This document shows, piece after piece, positions 2,600 through 12,199 of a stretch of DNA of 24,534 bases. The position numbers and the translations under genes are program-made. The stretch lies in IMG/VR virus record IMGVR_UViG_3300017956_000123, positions 1 through 24,534 of that record, one strand, 5' to 3'. This DNA comes from a virus. Under the pieces are notes generated by a model that saw only the letters and a list, made by a program, of their open reading frames with translations, had not been told where the DNA came from and did no database searches. Position 1 is the stretch's first letter, and each line of letters starts with the position of its first letter.

Positions 2600-3556
2600 A
2601 TGACTGGCGCACCCGGAAAAGTTCCTGCGGATGAGTTTCTTGATTTAATACGAGAGCATGGTTTAGGAGAAACCGCTCGAATGCTCGGAATAAACGAGCG
2701 AGCTGTTTATGCTAGGCGCGCGCGTCTGGAAAAGAAAACAAATTCAAAAATTGCGCGAAAAGAATATCTTACGGGATACAACCAGCGTTACGCTGAGCGA
2801 TTAACTTACGACATCCCTGATGGCGATATTTTAATTGCCTCGGACGCTCATTACTGGCCGGGTGAAATAACTACTGCTCACCGCGCTTTTGTTCACCTTA
2901 TCAAAAAACTAAAACCCAAAGCCGTTATCTACAACGGCGACATTCTTGATGGGGCCTCTATTAGTCGCCACCCTCGCATTGGCTGGGAAGAACGCCCGAC
3001 CCTTTCTGAAGAGCTTGACGTTTGCAAGGAGCGTTTAGACGAGGTTCGCGCTGCTGCCCCTAAATCCTCTTTGCTTATTCATACGCTTGGCAATCACGAC
3101 CTTCGTTTCGCTACCCGCCTTTCTAATGCTGTGCCTGAATACTCGTCTGTGCAAGGTACTCGCTTTGAAGACCATTTTCCCCACTGGGAAAGCGCGTGGT
3201 CAGTCTGGATAAACGACAGCATTGTTATCAAGCACCGTTTCAAAGGCGGCATTCACGCAACGCACAACAACGCTTTGTGGTCCGGCAAAACAATGGTGAC
3301 AGGGCATCTTCATTCGCTGAAGGTTACGCCATTGTCGGACTATAATGGTGTACGATGGGGCGTAGATAGCGGTACACTAGCGGACCCCTATGGCCCACAG
3401 TTCTCATTTTACACGGAAGACGGTCCCGTGAACTGGAGGTCTGGCTTTGTTGTTCTGACCATTGTTGACGGACAACTGTTGTGGCCTGACATCTGCTCAG
3501 TCGTAGATGACGGGACCGTTTGTTTTCGTGGTGAACTAATTGATGTATCGGGATGA
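2600..3556 (+). CDS. Calcineurin-like metallophosphoesterase with N-terminal helix-turn-helix
   Basis: This 318-residue protein has two parts. Residues about 10-45 form a helix-turn-helix (LGETARMLGINERAVYARR). From about residue 76 onward there is a metallophosphoesterase core with the standard metal-binding motifs in order: ASDAHYW (Asp82, His84), NGDILDG (Gly113, Asp114), GNHD (164-167), a later His in KHRFKGG and the final TGHLHS. All ligands appear present, so it should be an active two-metal phosphodiesterase or phosphatase. The same HTH-phosphoesterase arrangement is seen in other phages, but the substrate is unknown. It sits between the lysozyme gene and a DUF6378-like gene, whose start it overlaps by 14 bp. 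Confidence 0.85.
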   Translation: MTGAPGKVPADEFLDLIREHGLGETARMLGINERAVYARRARLEKKTNSKIARKEYLTGYNQRYAERLTYDIPDGDILIASDAHYWPGEITTAHRAFVHLIKKLKPKAVIYNGDILDGASISRHPRIGWEERPTLSEELDVCKERLDEVRAAAPKSSLLIHTLGNHDLRFATRLSNAVPEYSSVQGTRFEDHFPHWESAWSVWINDSIVIKHRFKGGIHATHNNALWSGKTMVTGHLHSLKVTPLSDYNGVRWGVDSGTLADPYGPQFSFYTEDGPVNWRSGFVVLTIVDGQLLWPDICSVVDDGTVCFRGELIDVSG

Positions 3557-3827
3557 AGCGTTAGAGCGAGCACTTGCGCTAGTAACCAAAGAACGTGAGA
3601 CACAACACGGGCCTGCAGACCGCAACGCAGAAGTTGTGGCTGCCCTATGGTCCGCTTACATTGGCAAAAAAATAAGCGAGCATGATGTGCCGGTCATGCT
3701 CGCTCTTATGAAAATAGGTAGGTTATCTGTTGGTGACCCTAAGGTTGAGGATCACTGGGTAGACGCCATAGGTTACTTGTCTATCGGCGTTGAAATTTGC
3801 ACAGTCAATTCATCTGATCCGAAGTAG
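3543..3827 (+). CDS. DUF6378-like small phage protein
   Basis: I chose ATG 3543; a TTG one codon earlier is possible. The 94-residue protein has the pattern I know from DUF6378-type phage proteins: a KERETQHGPADRN segment, then VAALWSAYIGKKISEHDVPV, MLALMKIGRLSVGDPKVEDH and a final DAIGYLSIGVEI helix. The fold is all-helical and may be MazG/dUTPase-like, so a nucleotide-pool role has been suggested for such proteins, but none is shown here. The gene ends the plus-strand block and overlaps the convergent DnaA-like gene by 23 bp at the 3' end, with no terminator between them. Confidence 0.75.
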   Translation: MYRDEALERALALVTKERETQHGPADRNAEVVAALWSAYIGKKISEHDVPVMLALMKIGRLSVGDPKVEDHWVDAIGYLSIGVEICTVNSSDPK

Positions 3828-4323
3828 GCGTATACATAGCCTGCAGAGCAGTCATGACTGCAGAGTACTTGCTTGAAAAATCTTTGTCGCTAGACATTAA
3901 CTGCTCTGCTCTCTCGCAAGCGTGAAGAATTGTTGTGTGGTCCCTATTTAGGAGACCGGCAACATAAGAAGAACTACGGCCAAGTCGCTTGTGAGCTATG
4001 TGGCAAAAAGCAAAGCGTGGGTACGTGGCACCGCGACCTCGAAGCTCGCTCATCACCAATTCAACAGGAATGTCCCATTGGTGGCAAACTGCTTCTAACA
4101 CTTTAGCTATTTGCCCCTTTGGCACAGCAAATTCTAACGAAGGTTTTACCTCAGCAACAGGTTGAGGCGCGTTAAACGACTCAAACAATGCTTGGATTTG
4201 CTTGCGCTCTGACGCAATACGCTGGGCAACTTTTGCGCCCTCGGCAACGGCTTCTGAGAGAGCGTCAATTGCTTCCCTCAGAAGCCGTACCTCGAACGCA
4301 AGATCACGAGGATCATGCGGCAT
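3805..4323 (-). CDS. Stand-alone DnaA domain IV-like DNA-binding protein
   Basis: This 172-residue protein has a helical N-terminal half (about 7-50, coiled-coil-like), a short linker, and a C-terminal region (about 70-165) that matches DnaA domain IV. The key signature is NRDHTTILHA at residues 126-135, the DnaA-box-reading loop, preceded by the helix-turn-helix RFAFCHIAHKRLGRSSSYVAGLL. The AAA+ ATPase part of DnaA is absent. It probably binds DnaA-box-like sites and could load host replication proteins at the phage origin, or occupy host oriC; both ideas are inference. It is the last gene of the minus-strand block, and its ATG overlaps the DUF932-like gene by 11 bp. Confidence 0.85.
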   Translation of the reverse strand: MPHDPRDLAFEVRLLREAIDALSEAVAEGAKVAQRIASERKQIQALFESFNAPQPVAEVKPSLEFAVPKGQIAKVLEAVCHQWDIPVELVMSELRGRGATYPRFAFCHIAHKRLGRSSSYVAGLLNRDHTTILHACERAEQLMSSDKDFSSKYSAVMTALQAMYTPTSDQMN

Positions 4324-5179
4324 TCGCTAGCTCCGGTTCATAGCTGCGCCAGCTCTTGCCGCTTTCAAGAGCAGCAACAGCATGCTGACGCTCGATCTGG
4401 GTTTTGACATTGGGATTGTTGTAGTGGGTAGCCCACGTAGTCAAGCAATCATCAAGACCTGCCATGCTCCAAGACAAATCCTGGACAAACTCCTGATAGA
4501 TATGATCGCGCGTAGATTTGGAGACTTTCATCGAAGCCAACAATTTGTATGCTTGGTCAGCTTCGAGTCGAATCTCATCCCAATGGGCGCGACGAGACTG
4601 AACTGTCTCAAAATCATGGATAGCGCCCAGCAGAGTATCAATGATTTCTGGTGTGCGCTCCATGATGTTTGTCGTGTGCCGCGCCTGAATGTGACCGTAC
4701 TCGCCACCGGAGTAAGGAATCACAGCCTGATTGGCACAGACAAACTTGTAACGTCCAGCACGGATTGAAAACGCGCAACTGCCGTCGTAACTGTCGAACA
4801 TAATAATGCGCAGGGCTTCTGCGCGTGTGCCTTCGAGGCTGGTGTATGCAGGAAGCAGTGCTTGCACAAACAGACGGCCACCATTGCTTGTCATGTCAAA
4901 CGACAAGTGCATGTCAGTGGTATCGATCTGATTGCTGTTGAGTGATTCGAGCAACGCTGCGGTTGACACGCGGTAGTCAGTAAGACCGTAACGAGACGAA
5001 TGAATCTCAATCGTTTCGTTGTTGTCTTTGTTGTAGACGCGCTGCCAGTAACGCCCGTCATTGTCATTGGTAAAGACACGCTCGATGCCAACGTCAAAGA
5101 ACTGAGGCTCTGCGTGGTTTGCTGGAACAAATCCGTGCTGAGCAATTTTTTCTGCGTAAGGAAGATTATCGAAAGGCAT
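4313..5179 (-). CDS. DUF932-like phage/plasmid protein
   Basis: I chose the ATG at 5179 (MPFDNLPY) because AGGAG lies 8 bases upstream; a start at 5215 is possible but has no better signal. The 288-residue product resembles the DUF932 family found in phages and plasmids. It has a conserved stretch around KFVCANQAVIPY and a HTTN motif (about residues 149-175), followed by a long helical C-terminal region. The biochemical role of the family is unknown, but members travel with phage replication and recombination genes, as here. It lies 25 bp after ssb and overlaps the DnaA-like gene. Confidence 0.75.
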   Translation of the reverse strand: MPFDNLPYAEKIAQHGFVPANHAEPQFFDVGIERVFTNDNDGRYWQRVYNKDNNETIEIHSSRYGLTDYRVSTAALLESLNSNQIDTTDMHLSFDMTSNGGRLFVQALLPAYTSLEGTRAEALRIIMFDSYDGSCAFSIRAGRYKFVCANQAVIPYSGGEYGHIQARHTTNIMERTPEIIDTLLGAIHDFETVQSRRAHWDEIRLEADQAYKLLASMKVSKSTRDHIYQEFVQDLSWSMAGLDDCLTTWATHYNNPNVKTQIERQHAVAALESGKSWRSYEPELANAA

Positions 5180-5204
5180 TGTTTGGACTCCTACCTTGTG
5201 TTGA

Positions 5205-5603
5205 TTACCATTCAATCAGTTCGTCGGACGAACCGGATGAGTCGCTGTTGACTGGCGCTGAGCCTTGCTTGCCTGAAATGCGACCAATGGTGCCATCGAA
5301 GCCAACATCGACAGACACGCTGCGACGCTTAACACCATCGTTATCAGTATACTCACCGATAGATAGAGTACCTTCAACGTAGACAATATCGCCCTTGCTG
5401 AGTTTGCCATCCAGGATTTTGACCAAGCGCTCTTGAAAGGTAACGACGTTGTGCCAAGTAGTTTCTTCTTCATAGCTGTCTCCTACTTTGCGGCTCTTGT
5501 TGGTGGCAACGCTTAGCTTTGCGAAAAGCTTGCCGTTTTTGGTTGTTTTGATTTCGAGGTCACGGCCAAGGCGACCAACAATAATCATGCGATTTACGTC
5601 CAT
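5205..5603 (-). CDS. ssb: Single-stranded DNA-binding protein
   Basis: This 132-residue protein is a typical SSB. It begins with MDVNRMIIVGRLGRDLEIK, contains the central ETTWHNVVTFQERL and KGDIVYVEGTLSIGEYTDND segments of the OB fold (about 1-105), then a short Ser/Gly-rich linker and an acidic end, DELIEW. Bacterial SSB tails usually end DDIPF and bind partner proteins; here the tail keeps the acidic residues and an aromatic end. AGGAG precedes the ATG. It lies between the DUF932-like gene and the annealing-protein candidate, fitting a replication and recombination operon. It would coat single-stranded phage DNA. Confidence 0.93.
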   Translation of the reverse strand: MDVNRMIIVGRLGRDLEIKTTKNGKLFAKLSVATNKSRKVGDSYEEETTWHNVVTFQERLVKILDGKLSKGDIVYVEGTLSIGEYTDNDGVKRRSVSVDVGFDGTIGRISGKQGSAPVNSDSSGSSDELIEW

Positions 5604-5612
5604 AGGGTTCTC

Positions 5613-6338
5613 CTACTCTTCTGTTTTGTAGAATGAAGGGGCAACAAACTGTGAGTTGTAATACTCGATGATGCGTTTGACCGCTTCGCTCAAAGCCTGA
5701 TTGGCTTTGCAAGCACCTTTGTAGTTCGTAACAAGGTCTCGGAAAGCATCGCTTCCCATTTCCTTGTCCATAACGAAAAAAGCTTGTCGGGCAAAATCGT
5801 CAAACACAGTACGATCTTTTTCTTCTAGGGCTTTAACACCCTCGAACACTTCACCGCCAATGTCTTCGATGCAGCGCTCGAGCGGGGTAGTTGTGTTTTG
5901 TGCTGGTTCCTCCGTAACCAGTTTGTTTAGCTCGTCAATCTTGCGAACCTTTTCCTGATGGTTAACAATTTCGTTGAGACTTGCGTACTCACCGCCATGC
6001 AGGCCAAAGCAGGCAAGTGCGCGGCCGATGGCAGATGTCTCGCAGTTCTCTAGCGCACTGCCTTTGTTGACAGGGCTAGTGCCACGCACCTCTTCTGCAA
6101 GGCCCGAGGCAACAATGTTGCCAAGCTTGTCGCGGATGACAGCTCGAACACGAACGTACTTGTCACCTGCGTCGATTACTTCTGTTTCGATGCCAAGGTT
6201 AGCACCATAGGCGCGACGGAATACCGTAACGCGATGCTTAACCTCCAGGTATTTTTTGCCGCCGCGCTGCTGAACACCGTGCTTTTCAAGCAGTATGTCA
6301 GCCTCTGTCATAACGTCAATGTGGTTTACTTCGGTCAT
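5613..6338 (-). CDS. Candidate single-strand annealing / recombination protein
   Basis: The 241-residue product starts at an ATG with AAGGAG upstream. Residues about 30-120 hold a pattern known from many phage proteins near exonucleases: KYLEVKHRVTVFRRAYG, a VRVRAVIRDKLGNIVASG strand pair, and the signature SALENCETSAIGRALACFG (about 94-112). The signature resembles the ETSAIGRAL-type motif of ERF/Rad52-like annealing proteins. The C-terminal third is helical and not recognisable. Beside SSB and a YqaJ-type exonuclease, it most likely anneals single strands as the Beta/RecT partner. The family assignment is an inference from motif and neighbours; an unrelated ssDNA-binding role is possible. 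Confidence 0.6.
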   Translation of the reverse strand: MTEVNHIDVMTEADILLEKHGVQQRGGKKYLEVKHRVTVFRRAYGANLGIETEVIDAGDKYVRVRAVIRDKLGNIVASGLAEEVRGTSPVNKGSALENCETSAIGRALACFGLHGGEYASLNEIVNHQEKVRKIDELNKLVTEEPAQNTTTPLERCIEDIGGEVFEGVKALEEKDRTVFDDFARQAFFVMDKEMGSDAFRDLVTNYKGACKANQALSEAVKRIIEYYNSQFVAPSFYKTEE

Positions 6339-6347
6339 GCGAACTCC

Positions 6348-6665
6348 TTAGATAAAAGATAGCTGTTGATTGCCAGTTACAAACACTCGATGCACGTGAA
6401 CGATGGCGTTGCGACCAGAAGGCGTCTTGCGACGTTGGGTGGTAGGGACAATGAATCCTTCTGCTGACAGCTCTGAACGACGAGTGCGATAGCTACTGCC
6501 AAAGTCATTGAAATGCTGCTGCATCTCTACGTCTGTAAACCCTTCTGGCCCTGCCTCTGTTGCAAACTGCAGGACTTCATCGCGGATTCGGTTCTTGTAG
6601 TCAGATGTAAGCGACTCTGCTGCTTCCCAGCTTGTCTCTGGGTCGCTGTTTCTTGCGTAACTCAT
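6348..6665 (-). CDS. Winged-helix DNA-binding protein of phage type
   Basis: This 105-residue protein opens with RNSDPETSWEAAESL, then an IRDEVLQFATEAGPEGFTDV helix pair, a recognition-type segment SSYRTRRSELSAEGFI (about 57-72) and a wing with RRKTPSGRNAIVHVHRV. This order is that of a small winged-helix protein common in phage genomes, often near recombination genes. It may regulate early transcription or assist recombination; neither is shown. It overlaps the exonuclease stop by 4 bp (ATGA) and is followed by the annealing-protein candidate after 9 bp, so it belongs to the same operon. Confidence 0.7.
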   Translation of the reverse strand: MSYARNSDPETSWEAAESLTSDYKNRIRDEVLQFATEAGPEGFTDVEMQQHFNDFGSSYRTRRSELSAEGFIVPTTQRRKTPSGRNAIVHVHRVFVTGNQQLSFI

Positions 6666-7438
6666 TCGTCTTCCTCCGTGTATTTGTTGTCCACGCGGAC
6701 AGTTAGACTGTTGTTCTTTGCACGAGTAATGCGAACGCCATTGCCGTATGCTTCTCTAGCGTCCTGAGGGACAATAGCTTTGAGATGTCGCTGTGCTGTC
6801 TCAAAGCGTTTCTTGAACGGCTGCATCTCTATCCACTCCACAGCCTCGCTACCCCACTCGTTGTTGGCGCTCATGTCCACAACACGCATGTCGTCCAGCA
6901 CAACGCTTGTGGGCTCGACGGCTATGGGTTGCTCAGATGGTGGCCTGTCTTCCTGTATACAGCGCGCTACGTGGTGCATAGCGTCGATCAAGGGGTCTAG
7001 GAACGCCTCGTCACGTGCAACGCGCTGACGACGATATGTGTTTCCGTGAATGACAGACAGATGTGCTTCTTCTGCGTCTGCCATCCAGATGTAGAACTGA
7101 AGCTGACCGTAGTAGTAGTCAGCAACAGCGTAGTTATAGGACGAGGTGTGCTTGCACTCGAGCGGTGCGTTGCCTGATCCTTTAATCATGCCGTCAAGGT
7201 GGGCGACAAAGTAAGGAAACTCGTCGTGGTGAAGCTCGACTTCGGGGGTAACTGTTAAACCAGACTGCTTCTCGAACCACTTGATATTAAAAGGCTCAGT
7301 GAAGATGCCGAGTTGCACTGCAATGCTGTCGGTAAGGTCTTCGTCTTCGAGGCGACCAGTTGCGCGCTGCCAAACATCATAGGCATTGCCCTGACTGATT
7401 TGATTGGCAGCACTGCCGCCAAGATGATACTGAGCCAT
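6662..7438 (-). CDS. YqaJ / lambda-exonuclease-type recombinase nuclease
   Basis: The 258-residue protein carries the PD-(D/E)XK nuclease pattern of the YqaJ/lambda exonuclease family: GGSAANQI near the start, a helix with LGIFTEPF (Glu48), AHLDGMI (Asp82), PLECKH (Glu94 and Lys96), and YYGQLQFYIWMA (Gln112). All expected catalytic positions are present. Such enzymes chew one strand from a DNA end and work with an annealing protein, here probably the product of 5613-6338. The ATG overlaps the previous stop by one base (TAATG). The C-terminal region after about residue 160 is family-variable. Confidence 0.88.
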   Translation of the reverse strand: MAQYHLGGSAANQISQGNAYDVWQRATGRLEDEDLTDSIAVQLGIFTEPFNIKWFEKQSGLTVTPEVELHHDEFPYFVAHLDGMIKGSGNAPLECKHTSSYNYAVADYYYGQLQFYIWMADAEEAHLSVIHGNTYRRQRVARDEAFLDPLIDAMHHVARCIQEDRPPSEQPIAVEPTSVVLDDMRVVDMSANNEWGSEAVEWIEMQPFKKRFETAQRHLKAIVPQDAREAYGNGVRITRAKNNSLTVRVDNKYTEEDE

Positions 7439-7725
7439 TAGATACCTCTACCTGTTGATAGCGCTTTTAGTGTTTCCATTGCGTCACCAATGAGATCGTC
7501 TGCCCCGTCAACATTTTCTTCTAGGTACTGAATAATATCTTTAAGGGCGTCTTTAATTTCGTCAGAAGCACGAACGTAATCTTCACGTTCAAACTCACGA
7601 TTGATTACGACGACTTGTGCGGTTGTGTCGCCATTGTTAGCGGCTTCCATGTTGTTGTTTATGTCAACCGTTGCTTCTTCGATCTTGCGAGCAAGTTCGT
7701 TAAGGCGTTGTAATGATGTGTACAT
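7438..7725 (-). CDS. Small acidic helical protein of unknown function
   Basis: I chose ATG 7725 because AGGGAG lies just upstream and an in-frame start further up has no such site. The 95-residue product (MYTSLQRLNELARKIEEA...) is acidic, rich in helices with likely coiled-coil character, and has no recognisable domain. It is the first gene of the recombination and replication unit, transcribed from the promoter region at 7726-7787, and its stop overlaps the exonuclease start by one base. Being first suggests a regulatory or host-interaction role, but that is a guess. Confidence 0.75.
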   Translation of the reverse strand: MYTSLQRLNELARKIEEATVDINNNMEAANNGDTTAQVVVINREFEREDYVRASDEIKDALKDIIQYLEENVDGADDLIGDAMETLKALSTGRGI

Positions 7726-7787
7726 TGGACTCCCTTTCGTTGGGGATAACAGTATACATTGCATTAGTGCAATGATCTAGGCAAAAA
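7726..7787 (-). promoter_or_regulatory. Candidate promoter with operator-like inverted repeat for the recombination operon
   Basis: Upstream of the gene starting at 7725, the minus strand has a good -10-like box TATACT (plus strand 7751-7756) but no clear -35. In place of a -35 there is a perfect inverted repeat, CATTGCA-CTAA-TGCAATG on the minus strand (7757-7774), right against the -10. This is the layout of an activated or repressed promoter. Just downstream, TTATCCCC resembles part of a DnaA box. The region lies between the terminator at 7783-7825 and the gene, so it must supply the operon's own start. The regulator could be one of the HTH proteins nearby; that is inference. Confidence 0.4.
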
Positions 7788-7825
7788 AAATCACCGAGTG
7801 TATCGGCGTATGGCATCGGTGATTT
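7783..7825 (-). terminator. Rho-independent terminator on the minus strand
   Basis: A perfect 10-bp inverted repeat (AAATCACCGA at 7788-7797 with TCGGTGATTT at 7816-7825) encloses an 18-base loop. On the minus strand it is followed directly by a run of T (plus strand A-run 7783-7790). It follows the gene ending at 7849 and precedes the recombination operon promoter, separating two minus-strand transcription units. The loop is longer than usual. Confidence 0.75.
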
Positions 7826-7848
7826 CCTTTGACTTTTTGTATTCTGCT

Positions 7849-8127
7849 CTACTGGGATGCCTCTTCTCCTTCACTAATCGGTACGTCGAATTTGTATGAC
7901 TTGTCGCTTTTTTCGTCAAAGAAAAGAGAGCCGCTTTCATATACTCTTTTGTTGGCATGGTTGGCTTTCAAGATAAGTTTAGAGGTGAAATCTTCTAACT
8001 CCGTTACGAACGACTCGTTTGGAGTGAGTCGACCAAGTTCTTGCGCAGCGTCATCAAGGGCTTGCAAGTATTGGCGAACTTTGGCGAGGCTTTGCAAGTA
8101 AAGCTGAACAGTAGCGGTAGAAGTCAT
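7849..8127 (-). CDS. Small protein of unknown function
   Basis: The 92-residue product has a helical N-terminal half (QLYLQSLAKVRQYLQALDDA, then a segment with LTPNESFVTELEDFTSKL) and a charged C-terminal half with FFDEKSDKSYKFDVPISEGE. I do not recognise a family. It overlaps the DUF1064 nuclease stop by ATGA and is the last gene before the terminator at 7783-7825, so it belongs to the HTH-nuclease unit. Confidence 0.7.
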   Translation of the reverse strand: MTSTATVQLYLQSLAKVRQYLQALDDAAQELGRLTPNESFVTELEDFTSKLILKANHANKRVYESGSLFFDEKSDKSYKFDVPISEGEEASQ

Positions 8128-8486
8128 TTAACAATCTCCACTTCGATGTCGTAGGTTGCTTCAACAAGCTTTTTCTTGAGCTTGAACAATTCTGTAATAA
8201 CTCCTTTCACATCTTGTATGCGGAAACGTCCTTGCTCTTCATCATAGAAGATGAAGTCAGGCTCATACCTGCATATGCGCTTGTTGTTGATAGTGATTTG
8301 AAAGTCTTTAGGGTGAACCCGAAGCTGCGAGATTTTTCCTGCAGCTTCTAGAACTTTCAGGTCCTGGTAGTGAGCGCACTCACGTTTGCTATCAAACTTG
8401 ATGCCGTCATATTCAACTCGAACATTTCGGTATTTGCGTTTGCGTTTGCTGGGGATCGTCTTAGGTTCTGCTTGTTCAGTTGTCAT
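8124..8486 (-). CDS. DUF1064 family predicted PD-(D/E)XK nuclease
   Basis: This 120-residue protein starts with a basic tail (SKRKRKYRNVRVEYDGIKFD) and then shows the DUF1064 order: SKRECAHYQDLKVLE (Glu36), a QLRVHPKDFQI strand, RYEPDFIFYDE (Asp77), and RIQDVKGVIT (Asp92, Lys94). These residues make a PD-(D/E)XK-type nuclease core, so an endonuclease acting on phage recombination or repair intermediates is likely; activity in this family is predicted rather than well established. It overlaps both neighbours by ATGA and is co-transcribed with the two HTH genes. Confidence 0.85.
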   Translation of the reverse strand: MTTEQAEPKTIPSKRKRKYRNVRVEYDGIKFDSKRECAHYQDLKVLEAAGKISQLRVHPKDFQITINNKRICRYEPDFIFYDEEQGRFRIQDVKGVITELFKLKKKLVEATYDIEVEIVK

Positions 8487-8692
8487 TTAATTGTAAACTC
8501 CGCGTCTAGTGCATCAGCCCAGCAAGCTAGCAAGAATGCGCGAGGTTTGCGTTCACCCACTTCCCACTTGCCAACTTGGCCGCGAGTTACTCCGATGATT
8601 TCATCTAAATCATTTTGGCTAATACCAAGGTCTTTGCGCCGCTCACGCAGCGCATCTATGAGTGATTGGTATGCCTTAGACTCTTCGATCAT
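8483..8692 (-). CDS. XRE-type helix-turn-helix regulator (small)
   Basis: I chose the ATG at 8692; a TTG one codon upstream is also possible. The 69-residue product is almost only a DNA-binding domain: helices around LIDALRERRKDLGISQNDLD, then EIIGVTRGQVGKWEVGERKP (about 33-52) as turn and recognition helix. It has no oligomerisation or sensor domain. There is no ribosome site of its own; it overlaps the upstream HTH gene by 17 bp, so translation is probably coupled. It probably controls the phage early genes, including its own operon. Confidence 0.85.
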   Translation of the reverse strand: MIEESKAYQSLIDALRERRKDLGISQNDLDEIIGVTRGQVGKWEVGERKPRAFLLACWADALDAEFTIK

Positions 8693-8849
8693 CAAGGTAA
8701 GCCAAGATAGCTTCTACCGTTGACCAACGGGGGTTGTATTTGTTTTTCTGCCACCGCCAAATAGTTGTTGGAGATATGCCAACCTCTTTGGCAACGTCAG
8801 ACAAAGACAGCCCCTGTTCTTCACAACGCTGTTGTAGAAATCCAAACAT
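8676..8849 (-). CDS. Very small helix-turn-helix protein, possible leaderless repressor/activator
   Basis: This 57-residue gene runs from ATG 8849 to TAA 8676-8678. The product contains a clear HTH: LSLSDVAKEVGISPTTIWRW (residues 14-33) followed by a third-helix region STVEAILAYLDD. It is the first gene of a unit with a second HTH gene and the DUF1064 nuclease. There is no Shine-Dalgarno sequence before its ATG, and a -10-like TATGAA ends only 5 bases upstream, so the message may begin at or near the ATG, as for lambda cI from PRM. It faces the S24-like gene at 8896 across 46 bp. Confidence 0.8.
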   Translation of the reverse strand: MFGFLQQRCEEQGLSLSDVAKEVGISPTTIWRWQKNKYNPRWSTVEAILAYLDDRRV

Positions 8850-8854
8850 AAGAC

Positions 8855-8884
8855 TTCATACAGCGTAACTGTGCAGTTCTGCAA
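8855..8884 (-). promoter_or_regulatory. Candidate promoter and operator for the HTH unit
   Basis: Read on the minus strand there is TTGCAG (8879-8884), an 18-base spacer, and TATGAA (8855-8860). The spacer holds a perfect palindrome, AACTGTGCAGTT (8867-8878). The palindrome lies midway between the divergent genes starting at 8849 and 8896, so it could be an operator controlling both. The -35 match is weak. Confidence 0.4.
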
Positions 8885-8895
8885 GCGGTGGAAAG

Positions 8896-9174
8896 ATGCT
8901 TACTGTTAAAATAATTTGCAGTGCGGATACACTAAACAAGTACGGCATATACGCTGGCGATACGCTAACAATAGATTACGATAAGTCTATTGCTTATCAG
9001 AGAGATGATATTGTTTTAGCTAGGCCAGACTATGAGTTGGCTCCTTATTTGTTTAGACCTCCTTTTATTGTTCCTGTCTCAACTGACAGAAGTTATGTGT
9101 CTCACGAGATCAAGGACATCCCCATCCTTGGCCGTGTAGTCGAGCTTAAAAGAGTCTTCAAGCCACGTTCTTAG
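8896..9174 (+). CDS. Small protein resembling the S24 (LexA/UmuD-type) peptidase fold, probably inactive
   Basis: The 92-residue product shows the order seen in S24 domains of LexA- and CI-like repressors: SADTLNKYGIYAGDTLTID (residues 9-27, like the motif around the catalytic Ser and GD), DDIVLARPD (37-45), a DRSYVSHEIKDI segment (64-75) and ILGRVVELKRVF at the end (77-88). The expected catalytic Lys after the DIV strand is not visible, so it is probably not a protease. It has no HTH of its own but is divergent from two HTH-only genes. It could act as a separate dimerisation or sensor partner. The family call is tentative. The last 96 bp overlap the candidate gene at 9079-9264 on the other strand. 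Confidence 0.55.
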   Translation: MLTVKIICSADTLNKYGIYAGDTLTIDYDKSIAYQRDDIVLARPDYELAPYLFRPPFIVPVSTDRSYVSHEIKDIPILGRVVELKRVFKPRS

Positions 9175-9264
9175 AACCCTTACAAACTGTTGGTAAGTAA
9201 GTTCAGCGCAGTCTGGACAGGCGGCGCACGCTGCATCGTATACAGCTTGGTATTTTCTTTTGAT
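9079..9264 (-). CDS. Candidate gene with a non-canonical AUC start, Cys-motif protein
   Basis: There is no ATG, GTG or TTG near the 5' end of this frame, yet the product reads like a protein. From ATC 9264 it gives 61 residues with a CAACPDC cluster (13-19) and a helix ELTYQQFVRVLRTWLEDSF. The ATC overlaps the upstream stop by one base (TAATC, like the TAATG overlaps used elsewhere here), and GAGGAG lies 8 bases upstream. The 3' half (9079-9174) is antisense to the S24-like gene in the same codon phase, where shadow frames often stay open, so that part is weaker evidence. The CxxCxxC-type spacing could bind metal. Start codon and reality are inferred. Confidence 0.4.
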   Translation of the reverse strand: MKRKYQAVYDAACAACPDCAELTYQQFVRVLRTWLEDSFKLDYTAKDGDVLDLVRHITSVS

Positions 9265-9461
9265 TAGTTTGTCTCCTCGTAGCGTTCTCTGGTTTCACGG
9301 ACCAGTTGTCCGTATTGGTTAAGGCCGAGGCCGTGTCTGAAAGCCGCAAGATGTGCGGCCTCCTCTGGTGTGTAGTTCCTGCTGGAATCATCCATTAGCC
9401 ACACGACGGTATGGGTTGCTCTTGCGTAGCGGCGCTCGTATGCGTCTTGTCGGTCCGTCAA
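9264..9461 (-). CDS. Small protein of unknown function (TTG start)
   Basis: The 65-residue product is charged and helical, with segments YERRYARATHTVVWLMDD and EEAAHLAAFRHGLGLNQYGQ. The start is TTG at 9461: GGAGG lies 6 bases upstream and the start sits just past the previous stop, which makes it convincing despite the rare codon. I do not recognise a family. It is part of the string of small minus-strand genes from 11192 down to about 9079, usually the place for host-takeover proteins in phages. Confidence 0.7.
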   Translation of the reverse strand: MTDRQDAYERRYARATHTVVWLMDDSSRNYTPEEAAHLAAFRHGLGLNQYGQLVRETRERYEETN

Positions 9462-9462
9462 T

Positions 9463-9630
9463 TCAGCCCTCCATTTCTCGTAGCAACTCGTCTATTGTCA
9501 TGCGGTTGTAGTGATTGGTCATATCATTGGCGATGTATTCCATCGCGTCCTCGACTGACAGATTGTCTATGAACCTGTTCACCAGTGCGTTAACGAGTTT
9601 GTTTCGATCTGGCTTGATGACTACAAACAT
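9463..9630 (-). CDS. Small helical protein of unknown function
   Basis: This 55-residue gene runs from ATG 9630 to TGA 9463-9465. The product starts MFVVIKPDRNKLVNALVNRF and continues with acidic helices (NLSVEDAMEYIANDM, MTIDELLREMEG). It begins one base after the stop of the membrane protein gene at 9632, with AAGGG upstream, and carries at its end the ribosome site for the next gene. This tight spacing supports it as real. No family recognised. Confidence 0.7.
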   Translation of the reverse strand: MFVVIKPDRNKLVNALVNRFIDNLSVEDAMEYIANDMTNHYNRMTIDELLREMEG

Positions 9631-9631
9631 A

Positions 9632-9823
9632 CTATCCAACCCTTTTAGTCAGTTGGATTGTGATGAGAATCACGAGTATCCAATATGGAGCGGATACAAT
9701 TGACAGGATCATGGTTGGATTGACACCTGCGAGCAGCGCGCCCCATAAAGATGCAATCATAAGAATCAAGTAGTACAGCACGAACGCACCAATGGTTCGT
9801 GCAATTCGGGTTTGGCCCATCAT
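9632..9823 (-). CDS. Small two-helix membrane protein
   Basis: I chose the first of two ATG codons at 9823, which overlaps the stop of the zinc-ribbon gene (ATGA) and has AGGAAAG upstream. The 63-residue product has a short basic N-terminus (QTRIAR), two hydrophobic helices (about 10-33 and 38-57) and a basic end (TKRVG). It should sit in the inner membrane with both ends inside. No family recognised. It could act in host takeover or superinfection exclusion; this is a guess from size and context. Confidence 0.7.
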   Translation of the reverse strand: MMGQTRIARTIGAFVLYYLILMIASLWGALLAGVNPTMILSIVSAPYWILVILITIQLTKRVG

Positions 9824-10071
9824 CGTTCTTTCCTTTCCAGCCATTGGTTGCCAGATATGCCAAGGCAGTACTGAAGCTCCGTCTTGCATTTGGGGCAGTA
9901 GTCTTTGTTGTCACGGACAGCGTTGATGTTGACCCAAGTTTTGCAGGACGGGCATGTAACCTCTACGTCTTGGTATGCTCGAACGTAGTAGCGTTGGCGT
10001 TCAGCATCGGACATCTTGTAGTGACAAGGACGATCTGGGTGACGTAATTCGTCACAGTCAGGACAGATCAT
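9820..10071 (-). CDS. Small zinc-ribbon protein
   Basis: The 83-residue product contains several metal-type Cys pairs: CPDC at residues 3-6, a CHY further on, CPSC (about 40-43) and CPKC (about 59-62), the last two arranged as a zinc ribbon. GGGAG stands before the ATG. Such small ribbons in phages often bind nucleic acid or host polymerase subunits, but no target is visible. It overlaps the following membrane protein gene by ATGA and has a hairpin-forming GC-rich stretch upstream. Confidence 0.75.
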   Translation of the reverse strand: MICPDCDELRHPDRPCHYKMSDAERQRYYVRAYQDVEVTCPSCKTWVNINAVRDNKDYCPKCKTELQYCLGISGNQWLERKER

Positions 10072-10099
10072 AGGAAACTCCCTTGTTTAGAAACTTGCG

Positions 10100-10146
10100 G
10101 GTGACCTTGGCTAGCTGGAGGCGCGACGCTATGCGCCGCGACCCCG
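10100..10146 (-). other. GC-rich hairpin in the leader of the zinc-ribbon gene
   Basis: Between the genes ending at 10147 and starting at 10071, the minus strand can fold CGCGGCG-CATAG-CGTCGCG with one G-U pair. No T-run follows, so it is not a standard terminator. It may be an RNA stability or attenuation element. Confidence 0.35.
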
Positions 10147-10305
10147 TTAGTTGAAGATGAATTTCAGAATAAGTGCAGCAGCAATGATGTATGCAATGGG
10201 CTTGAACCAGCCAAAAGTGGTAGTTGCGTAGTCGTCAATCTGGTCGATGATTGGTTCAGCTTTGTCCACGAGATTGTGCAGTTTGTCTTTGCGAGAGTCG
10301 GTCAT
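10147..10305 (-). CDS. Small single-helix membrane protein
   Basis: I chose the ATG at 10305, which has GGAG 9 bases upstream; longer readings of this frame run back through the gene at 10415 and are not credible. The 52-residue product has a charged N-terminal part (MTDSRKDKLHNLVDKAEPII), then a C-terminal hydrophobic helix (about 36-51). It would be anchored in the inner membrane by its C-terminus. It lies just downstream of a strong terminator, so it either has its own promoter, which I cannot see, or depends on read-through. Confidence 0.7.
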   Translation of the reverse strand: MTDSRKDKLHNLVDKAEPIIDQIDDYATTTFGWFKPIAYIIAAALILKFIFN

Positions 10306-10366
10306 TGTGAACTCCAGTAACCCATGCGGGTGAGCGGTAACGCGCGGGACCCCTGTGGCGAGCGAG

Positions 10367-10407
10367 AAAAAAGGGGGAGGGCACCCTGCCGAAGCAGAGC
10401 GCCCTCC
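10367..10407 (-). terminator. Strong rho-independent terminator on the minus strand
   Basis: On the minus strand GGAGGGC (10401-10407) pairs with GCCCTCC (10376-10382); the inner part adds CTGC-TTCG-GCAG, a C(UUCG)G tetraloop, and six T residues follow (10367-10372). It comes right after the gene ending at 10415. It splits the minus-strand small-gene cluster into two units or sets a partial read-through ratio. Confidence 0.9.
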
Positions 10408-10414
10408 GGTGATG

Positions 10415-10903
10415 CTAGGCAAATCGCTTAGCGAGTTGCTGTGCAATGTCAGCAGACACCCTAGCCGGTGATCCAGACTGGGAGTTGGTGGGGACGTAAG
10501 GAGTCCAACGTTCGCCGGTACCATGCTCGATGGCGTCCACAAGCATATCGCGGAAGGTACACAGATCGCTGATCTGGTTGTCGATGTTAGCCTTGCGAAG
10601 AATGATGTCAGTAAGGCGTCCAGCGTCGATTTCCGTGCCAGTGGTGGAGGCAGCAGCGCTATTGATGTCGTTGCTGTATTTGTCGGCTTGGGCCTGCAGC
10701 CGCTTGGCCTTGTTGTCCAGGCCGGAGCAGAGAGGGTAGAGGTTGTACGCAGTGCCTTTGAGATTGTAGTCGTCGTGGTCGCCGTATGAAGAGAAGGCAT
10801 CCACGATGAGACGGGCAGCGCGCTCGAGCATTTCGTAGTCAGCACGAGGCAGATTGTCGACGGTTTCAGCAACAGTGTCGAGGAATGTAGCGGTCTGGGT
10901 CAT
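10415..10903 (-). CDS. Protein of unknown function, helical
   Basis: The 162-residue product is mostly helical, with an N-terminal half containing FLDTVAETVDNLPRADYEML and RLIVDAFSSYG, and a coiled-coil-like middle (NKAKRLQAQADKYSNDINSA, residues about 64-83). It has no recognisable domain. AAGGA lies before the ATG. It is the largest gene in the minus-strand small-gene cluster and is followed by the strong terminator at 10367-10407, which suggests a well-expressed early message. Confidence 0.75.
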   Translation of the reverse strand: MTQTATFLDTVAETVDNLPRADYEMLERAARLIVDAFSSYGDHDDYNLKGTAYNLYPLCSGLDNKAKRLQAQADKYSNDINSAAASTTGTEIDAGRLTDIILRKANIDNQISDLCTFRDMLVDAIEHGTGERWTPYVPTNSQSGSPARVSADIAQQLAKRFA

Positions 10904-10905
10904 GT

Positions 10906-11010
10906 CTAGAGTCCTTCACGTTCGTTAAGGTAGATGGCAATGAACAAAGCGCCCAAGAGAGCGCCAAAAGGTGTTGCAACAGCAAGCATGGGATAGATCC
11001 AGTCAGGCAT
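10906..11010 (-). CDS. 34-residue membrane peptide
   Basis: The ATG at 11010 overlaps the upstream stop (TGATG), and the product MPDWIYPMLAVATPFGALLG, continuing into a hydrophobic helix and ending NEREGL, is a single membrane helix with a short charged tail. It ends 2 bp before the next gene. The AGGAA upstream and the exact fit between neighbours support it. No family can be assigned at this size. Confidence 0.6.
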   Translation of the reverse strand: MPDWIYPMLAVATPFGALLGALFIAIYLNEREGL

Positions 11011-11192
11011 CAGATGCGTTCCTTTCCAGAAGTAACGGTAAGATGTGTCTGAAGTTCAGCGAGCGAGTCGTCATCGAAGCTGTCCCAGAATTTGTGTGAT
11101 TCAGTCCTGAAGCCGAGAAGAATGTGATCGATGAGAACGTCGTCATCGAAGTCTTCGTCCAGAATTTCGATCAGGTCAAAGTAGTTAGTCAT
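11010..11192 (-). CDS. Small, very acidic protein of unknown function
   Basis: The 60-residue product is strikingly acidic, with DLIEILDEDFDDDVLIDHIL near the start and DSFDDDSLAEL later. AAGGAG precedes the ATG at the usual distance. It is the first gene of the minus-strand cluster, so it may be the first early protein made. Very acidic small early proteins in other phages can mimic DNA and block DNA-binding host proteins; nothing here proves that. No family recognised. Confidence 0.7.
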   Translation of the reverse strand: MTNYFDLIEILDEDFDDDVLIDHILLGFRTESHKFWDSFDDDSLAELQTHLTVTSGKERI

Positions 11193-11260
11193 GTCTTGAA
11201 CTCCTTGTTGCCAACCTTGTTGTTGGTTTGCCCACTAGATCGTGCAAAATAGCGCAGCGG

Positions 11261-11411
11261 TGCTGTGTCAGGACCGAAGCCGCTGAAAGCGGGCCATTTT
11301 TTTACAGCTAAGATGTCGCAAGAAGCAGACTGACAATAAGCTGGGGCAGGAGTAGCAACAGGATAAACGGTTGGGAAAAAATGGAGTCTTGACACAGCAA
11401 TTTTGTATGAT
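11261..11411. promoter_or_regulatory. Inverted 10-bp repeat pair flanking divergent start region
   Basis: TGCTGTGTCA at 11261-11270 and its exact inverse TGACACAGCA at 11390-11399 lie about 120 bp apart. Each provides a TTGACA- or CTGACA-like box pointing outward: plus strand TTGACA (11389-11394) with TATGAT (11406-11411), and minus strand CTGACA with TATTTT (11246-11251). The spacings (11 and 14) are too short for ordinary sigma-70 promoters, so they may be regulator sites or unusual promoters for the leftward and rightward units. Confidence 0.35.
11279..11303 (+). terminator. Rho-independent terminator-like hairpin on the plus strand
   Basis: CCGCT-GAA-AGCGG (11280-11292) is followed by GCCA and seven T (11297-11303). 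It reads on the plus strand, although no plus-strand gene precedes it nearby. It may stop antisense or upstream transcription, or end a short RNA. Confidence 0.55.
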
Positions 11412-11457
11412 ACGCGCCCGGAGTGCTTGCACGTAGGGCGTGTGTGGGCGCAAACCA

Positions 11458-11620
11458 GCAACGAGGGGAGTAGGAAAGCTCGGTGGGAGCCAAGCAGCGA
11501 GTGCGAGAGGGACCGGAACGGGCCCGGCCCCGAAGGGGACGAAGCAACGAGTCGCTTGTGGCTCTAGTTGTTGGTGCATATTGCGCGAGCATTGCAGCGA
11601 GAAAACGCAGCGAAGCGAGG
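11458..11620 (+). repeat. Direct repeats of GCARCGAG
   Basis: Copies lie at 11458-11465, 11494-11501, 11544-11551 and 11594-11601, with a one-mismatch copy at 11607-11614 and further CGAG elements nearby. Start-to-start distances are 36, 50, 50 and 13. All are in the same orientation, ending about 175 bp before the small terminase start. Such iterated sites often bind a terminase small subunit or a replication initiator. Confidence 0.6.
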
Positions 11621-11738
11621 CTCGAGCGGGAAGAGTCAGCAAGGCTGCAGACTAATCCGACAAATAGCGCATCGACCCCGCAGGGGGCGGTGTGCGTGAA
11701 ACAAGAAGAATTCCACTAGCCTAATCAAAGGCATAGGC

Positions 11739-11746
11739 TGTGCGTT
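11739..11746 (+). promoter_or_regulatory. TGTGCGTT motif, copy 1 (upstream of small terminase)
   Basis: One of four plus-strand copies of TGTGCGTT in the late region. Here it is followed by GACA, making TTGACA at 11745-11750, but no good -10 box lies at the right distance. It directly follows the AGCCTA/TAGGCT hairpin. Confidence 0.4.
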
Positions 11747-11794
11747 GACAAGCAAATGAGTCTGTGTCTCTCTTTGTTCCAAGAGGTATCCGAT

Positions 11795-12199
11795 ATGAAT
11801 AACGTTGTCGCAAAAGCGGTATCGCAAGCGTCTCCAGATCGTGTCTTAACGGATAAGCAGATGGCTCTAGTTGATACGCTAGTAAGTACCGGATGTACTG
11901 TGAAACAGGCCTCCGTACAGGCAGGGTATAAGGACAGTGAAGGAGGGAGGGTAGCGGCACAGAAAACCCTGAAGCTTCCGCATGTTCAGGCGTATCTTCT
12001 TAAGGCTGTGTCAGAGCATCTCGGTACCAATGCAGCAAGGGCAGCCGCGAGGATGGTAACGCTGGCTACGGAAGCCCGCTCAGAGTACGTTCAACTCGAA
12101 GCGTCGAAGGACATCTTGGACCGGACTGGTTTTAAGCCACCGGATAGGACGAAGGCCGAAGTGCTAGGAGATATCTCGGTCAAGATTGACCTCGGCTAG
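11795..12199 (+). CDS. Terminase small subunit
   Basis: I chose the ATG at 11795, with AGAGG upstream; an ATG at 11756 has no ribosome site. The 134-residue product has an N-terminal HTH-type region: LTDKQMALVDTLVSTGCTVK, then ASVQAGYKDSEGGRVAAQKT and LPHVQAYLLKA (about 18-75), the usual order in phage small terminases. The C-terminal part includes SEYVQLEASKDILDRTGFKP, also typical. It would recognise the packaging site, possibly the repeats just upstream, and guide the large terminase. It is separated from the large terminase by five small genes, which is unusual but seen in some T7-like phages. Confidence 0.85.
   Translation: MNNVVAKAVSQASPDRVLTDKQMALVDTLVSTGCTVKQASVQAGYKDSEGGRVAAQKTLKLPHVQAYLLKAVSEHLGTNAARAAARMVTLATEARSEYVQLEASKDILDRTGFKPPDRTKAEVLGDISVKIDLG

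Follow-up and report, generated by a model that had tools for sequence, protein, structure and literature searches.

A long hairpin over the start of a leftward phage gene beside terS: a candidate large structured RNA with antisense geometry

The antisense RNA C4 of P1 and P7 is short and is processed out of the transcript that also carries its target. RNA-OUT of IS10, likewise an antisense RNA, folds into a stable imperfect hairpin and covers an opposite-strand start region. Phages and prophages also encode the large, ornate RNAs GOLLD and ROOL, which are multibranched, contain pseudoknots, self-assemble into cages and are often encoded near tRNA islands (PMC12286853). Staphylococcal phages produce cabRNA, a structured RNA of about 400 nt that lies within the terS/terL coding sequence and is sensed by CBASS (PMC10686824). 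The locus described here carries a long predicted hairpin between terS and a divergent leftward gene, the start of which lies inside the hairpin.

The window, which is the whole stretch of DNA analysed (24,534 nt), is a 24.5-kb virus contig from a podovirus-like phage with T7-like connector and tail genes. Genes at 3805-11192 are mostly leftward and encode a DnaA_C-domain protein, SSB, a YqaJ-type exonuclease and HTH regulators; the small terminase gene terS (11795-12199, plus strand; phrog_2538 and phrog_51) and the head and tail genes are rightward. The point of divergence is a gap of 602 bp (11193-11794) between terS and a 60-aa leftward ORF without a family match (11010-11192, minus strand). 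The original prediction of about 600 bp of non-coding DNA before the small terminase gene was borne out. The third-position bias of coding substitutions was absent from every ORF in the gap and present in the terS control, and an overlooked protein-coding gene was rejected because substitutions in the gap ORFs were unlike those in terS. Selection on the gap had also been proposed, in agreement with its 93% identity to the related locus L097, compared with 85% in the neighbouring coding stretch on the terS side. No tRNA genes were found in the window. The protein encoded at 3808-4323 (minus strand) comprises the DnaA C-terminal DNA-binding domain alone, and the strict DnaA box TTWTNCACA is absent in the window; a DnaA-like protein is thus encoded as stated earlier, but about 7 kb away and not nearby. 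Amid the leftward genes, a rightward ORF of 92 aa (8896-9174, plus strand) diverges from an HTH gene (8676-8849); it may mark a lysogeny switch and may be a source of rightward read-through transcription.

Energy-based folding of the rightward-strand RNA predicts a long imperfect hairpin, a rod of roughly 395 nt at 11151-11545. For 11148-11548 on the plus strand, the minimum free energy structure coincides with the centroid (-161.7 kcal/mol; z -6.8), and none of 100 shuffles folded to so low an energy. The complementary strand of the same segment also folds better than its shuffles (z -4.3). The whole 602-nt gap gave a z of about -6 and the segment 11193-11480 a z of about -6.1; across the contig, no 300-nt window scored below -4.8.

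The outer left arm of the hairpin is the beginning of the leftward ORF. The left strand of the outermost helix (11153-11160) lies within that gene and pairs with 11537-11544 at all eight positions (8/8); the start codon (11190-11192, minus strand) and the Shine-Dalgarno sequence AAGGAG (11201-11206, minus strand) are also in the left arm, the latter within a helix. Towards the apex, the strands CTTGTTGC (11204-11211), 11215-11235, 11239-11250, 11261-11274 and CCATTTTTTT (11294-11303) pair with 11494-11501, 11444-11466, 11400-11411, 11386-11399 and 11375-11384, respectively. Two smaller hairpins, CCGCTGAAAGCGG with a GAA loop (11280-11292) and the side hairpin ACGCGCCC...GGGCGTGT (11412-11443), are also part of the rod; the side hairpin and the helix strand at 11239-11250 are invariant in four relatives. 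The 3' domain (11546-11700) folds more weakly (z about -2.3 for 11470-11700), is mostly invariant in four relatives and includes a terminal hairpin at 11667-11695, GCGCATCG ACCCC GCA GGGGG CGGTGTGC. The helix strands, the hairpins and the 3' domain are given on the plus strand. In the more distant locus L005, a manual reading found that the small hairpin is kept, as is the T-rich helix, each with a changed and re-paired sequence: CCGGCG-TAGA-CGCCGG stands in place of CCGCTGAAAGCGG, and CGATCTTTTT/AAAAAGATCG in place of the CCATTTTTTT helix.

The direct repeats GCARCGAG begin at exactly the positions first reported, 11458, 11494, 11544 and 11594, with the near copy GCAGCGAA at 11607, and the inverted repeats and C-rich/G-rich hairpins noted with them are present. 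Four copies in 602 nt exceed chance: none of 5000 dinucleotide shuffles held as many copies of GCARCGAG, although 6 of 300 shuffles reached four copies of any 8-mer with one degenerate position. In the fold, the plus-strand copies at 11458-11465 (GCAACGAG) and 11494-11501 (GCAGCGAG) pair fully with 11216-11223 and with CTTGTTGC, so that each matches, base for base, one of two CCTTGTTG repeats near the gap's left edge. The copy at 11544-11551 (GCAACGAG), which is not conserved in L004, forms a local stem with 11562-11571, and the copies within 11594-11614 (GCAGCGAG and GCAGCGAA) pair with each other. Because the copies are helix strands, their repetition reflects the repeated CCTTGTTG partners. 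Comparison with relatives showed an array that is partly kept, with two copies altered: L004 has GCTATGAG in place of the copy at 11544, and L097 has GCAGCGAA in place of that at 11594. An ordered array bound by a protein, the arrangement favoured originally, was rejected on both grounds. The proposed plus-strand terminator is probably not one either, as the T-run that follows the hairpin at 11280-11302 is paired with 11375-11384 inside the predicted long hairpin; the count of terminator-like sites in the region was also within the shuffle range.

TerS-based searches and a pattern search yielded 109 non-redundant related loci, mostly from uncultured phages. The sole cultured relative found was Pelagibacter phage Hodr, which shares 64.5% identity with the window phage in TerL and 51% in TerS; no DNA similarity to the region was found among GenBank phages. 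In a first sample of 53 loci, the 500 nt before terS had a mean plus-strand z of -6.9, compared with -0.2 for downstream coding sequence. Windows of 400 nt with z < -4, rough values based on 12 shuffles each, occurred upstream of terS in 94 of the 109 loci and downstream in 14. Arms of 130-260 nt were found in the long-hairpin members. A score for symmetric arm complementarity exceeded all of 10 shuffles in 38 of 54 loci; the window does not beat its shuffles by this score, and its evidence is the energy-based fold. In Hodr the hairpin spans about 4433-4930 of locus L082. The locus tags in the GenBank record OQ414635.1, named Hodr (EXVC031P), bear a different phage name (EXVC032PBaldr). The early operon of Hodr (L237) includes a gene for an ArdC-type anti-restriction protein (1574-2458); Hodr also encodes a protein with HTH and DnaT domains (3432-3959), and no recognisable polymerase was found among the early genes read.

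Compensatory changes in two clades of these relatives indicate a structured RNA under selection; the window clade has too few such changes for a verdict of its own. Sequence turnover between clades makes it unlikely that a single covariance model would span them. In clade A4 (five sequences), 32 of 124 pairs had changed on both sides, compared with 18.1 in shuffles (0/500 reached 32) and 4-9 in slid controls, and both pairing and covariation reached into the leftward coding sequence (11/49 pairs). Clade A5 (seven sequences) had 20 of 161 such pairs, compared with 11.4 in shuffles (0/500 reached 20) and 0-2 in slid controls. Across 131 pairs of related loci, which are not independent of each other, doubly changed pairs were still paired at 855:517 (62%) upstream; in the coding control the ratio was 409:563 (42%). 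The comparison across relatives was thus positive in A4 and A5 and within the shuffle range in the window clade. There, variation is low and the three doubly changed pairs were matched by 106 of 500 shuffles, so direct covariation for the window's own sequence is weak. The pair U11266-A11394, for example, is replaced by C-G in L097 and by U.U in L004.

Wobble pairs indicate which strand folds. Where a helix is predicted on both strands alike, G-U on the plus strand outnumbered A-C by 151:50, about 3:1. Changes at unpaired sites (124 C/T and 163 A/G) were proportional to composition, and strand-biased C-to-T mutation therefore does not explain the excess. The folded molecule under selection is thus most likely the rightward strand. 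Together, the fold, the covariation in relatives and this strand preference support a structured RNA, which had been listed as the third option for the gap.

The hairpin is anchored to the leftward gene. Of 41 strong hairpins, 39 contain the leftward ribosome-binding site (RBS) and start codon within the left arm (random placement expects 33%), at a median of 83 nt from the arm's outer end, and the position of the leftward start correlates with that of the hairpin apex (0.93). The distance from the hairpin end to terS ranges over 0-434 nt in the same set. As the start stays in the left arm even when the end is 434 nt away, the hairpin tracks the early gene rather than terS; this anchoring links the element to the leftward operon and speaks against a role in packaging.

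Several other elements lie close to terS. A TTGACA at 11745-11750 (plus strand) may be the -35 element of a promoter directed rightward. Of 109 relatives, 98 have a TTGACA in the last 260 nt ahead of terS, and in nearly all of these it is no more than about 130 nt away. A consistent sigma70-like rightward promoter was not found upstream of the left arm. The sequence TTGACA...TATGAT at 11389-11412 was rejected as a promoter, since its spacing is 12 nt and its TTGACA varies in relatives in ways that keep the pairing. A twin G-tract (G6-7, 3-11 nt, G6-7), absent in the window, is present in 96 of 109 related loci, mostly 30-31 nt (19 nt in 16 loci) from the start of the TTGACA before terS; in L101 it lies 36-18 nt before the gene. 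It is a candidate packaging site or G-initiating late promoter. Just before terS in L088 and L089, an inverted repeat of ~17 bp, CTGTTTTAACAAGAGAA...TTCTCTTGTTAAAACAG, brackets the TTGACA and G-tracts. Palindromes resembling GTGACG-N3-CGTCAC stand directly before the rightward TTGACA in L013, L029, L036 and L135, among others, and may be operators for a regulator.

Since strand preference and anchoring agree, the gap is read here as encoding a large structured rightward RNA of antisense type that acts on the leftward operon, a reading to which we give roughly an even chance of being right. The hairpin structure itself is well supported; its regulatory function and its promoter we infer. The rod at 11151-11545 would form the core of the RNA and would be transcribed rightward. 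In the geometry expected of a cis-antisense RNA, the hairpin covers the leftward translation start: the left arm would be antisense to the RBS, the start codon and the earliest codons of the gene that opens the leftward operon, and the right arm resembles an inverted copy of the same start region. Acting as an antisense-type regulator or as a structured antisense leader, the RNA may turn down the leftward operon, and this could coincide with a shift of transcription to the rightward late genes.

The opposite polarity is unlikely. A promoter to the right of the hairpin would then drive a leftward early mRNA that folds onto its own RBS and start codon, blocking or timing translation, possibly with processing by RNase III. 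The RBS and start codon do lie within the arm, the minus strand too folds better than shuffles, and a minus-strand TTGACA occurs to the right of the hairpin in about half of the relatives, clustered near -130 from terS. No consistent -10 was seen after that TTGACA, however, and plus-strand G-U, which would be A-C on a leftward mRNA, is three times commoner. Somewhat less likely again is a structural, scaffold or decoy RNA acting in trans by binding a host protein, a nuclease or a defence sensor, with the overlap of the leftward gene a by-product of its origin. The rod shape, the size of 350-500 nt and the rapid turnover of sequence with retained pairing would suit such a role, for which the sensing of a phage terminase-region RNA by CBASS offers a precedent (PMC10686824); left unexplained is why 39 of 41 left arms contain the leftward start.

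A DNA element, either a pac/cos packaging site or a replication origin, working through a repeat array or a hairpin in single-stranded DNA, is improbable. The gap adjoins terS, the phage encodes a DnaA_C protein and SSB while the early genes read include none for a polymerase, and a folded single DNA strand could likewise yield a G-T excess. Against this, the hairpin follows the leftward start and not terS, from which it ends 0-434 nt away, and the twin G-tract conserved nearer terS in relatives is the better candidate for packaging; the packaging site of the original prediction accordingly finds no support. Nor does its replication origin, given that the window holds no strict DnaA box and the repeats are helix strands, partly lost in relatives. 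Least probable is that the structure arose by chance, or through an inverted duplication long ago, and has no function. The arms are nearly perfect in Hodr and a few relatives, which is what one would expect soon after an inverted duplication, but the compensatory changes and strand-specific wobble, a position conserved in about 100 loci and a gap more conserved than the adjacent coding sequence all argue for function.

To return to the rightward antisense-type RNA, a broader proposal is advanced tentatively, as possible but short of probable: giant phage hairpin RNAs would be a new class, born by inverted duplication of an early gene start and kept as rod-like antisense RNAs that set the early-to-late switch in a large phage group, their sequences turning over fast but always keeping a hairpin across the gene start. 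At about a hundred sampled phage loci, a very long RNA hairpin is strongly selected at a fixed genomic place. Through the cultured relative Hodr, the early-to-late switch in this widespread group of phages is open to direct test, and the idea of long hairpin RNAs as phage regulators or immune decoys can be tested as well.

Rfam 15 gave no match at the gathering score in the window or in 18 related loci, and nothing at relaxed thresholds, where the best sub-threshold match was terC (E=2, minus strand). The two marks of GOLLD and ROOL, an Rfam model match and tRNA neighbours, were not found in the window, and no match to those models was found in the 18 related loci. A description of the element was not found in the open-access papers searched.

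The hairpin RNA resembles GOLLD and ROOL in being large (hundreds of nt), structured, noncoding and phage-encoded, with a function that is not known, but it is a rod over a gene start, with no Rfam match and no tRNA in the window. Like cabRNA, the element is structured, ~400 nt long and located in the terminase region; unlike cabRNA, it is intergenic and overlaps the leftward gene, and does not lie within the terS/terL coding sequence. With C4 it shares complementarity to the RBS of a phage regulatory operon, but it is roughly 400 nt long, lies on the opposite strand by the wobble evidence and has no Rfam match. RNA-OUT is likewise a stable imperfect hairpin over an opposite-strand start region, whereas the present element is roughly five times longer, occurs in phages, extends its arms into coding sequence and is represented by many unrelated sequences. 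On the best reading, this element, which is absent from Rfam, is a large structured phage RNA with antisense geometry.
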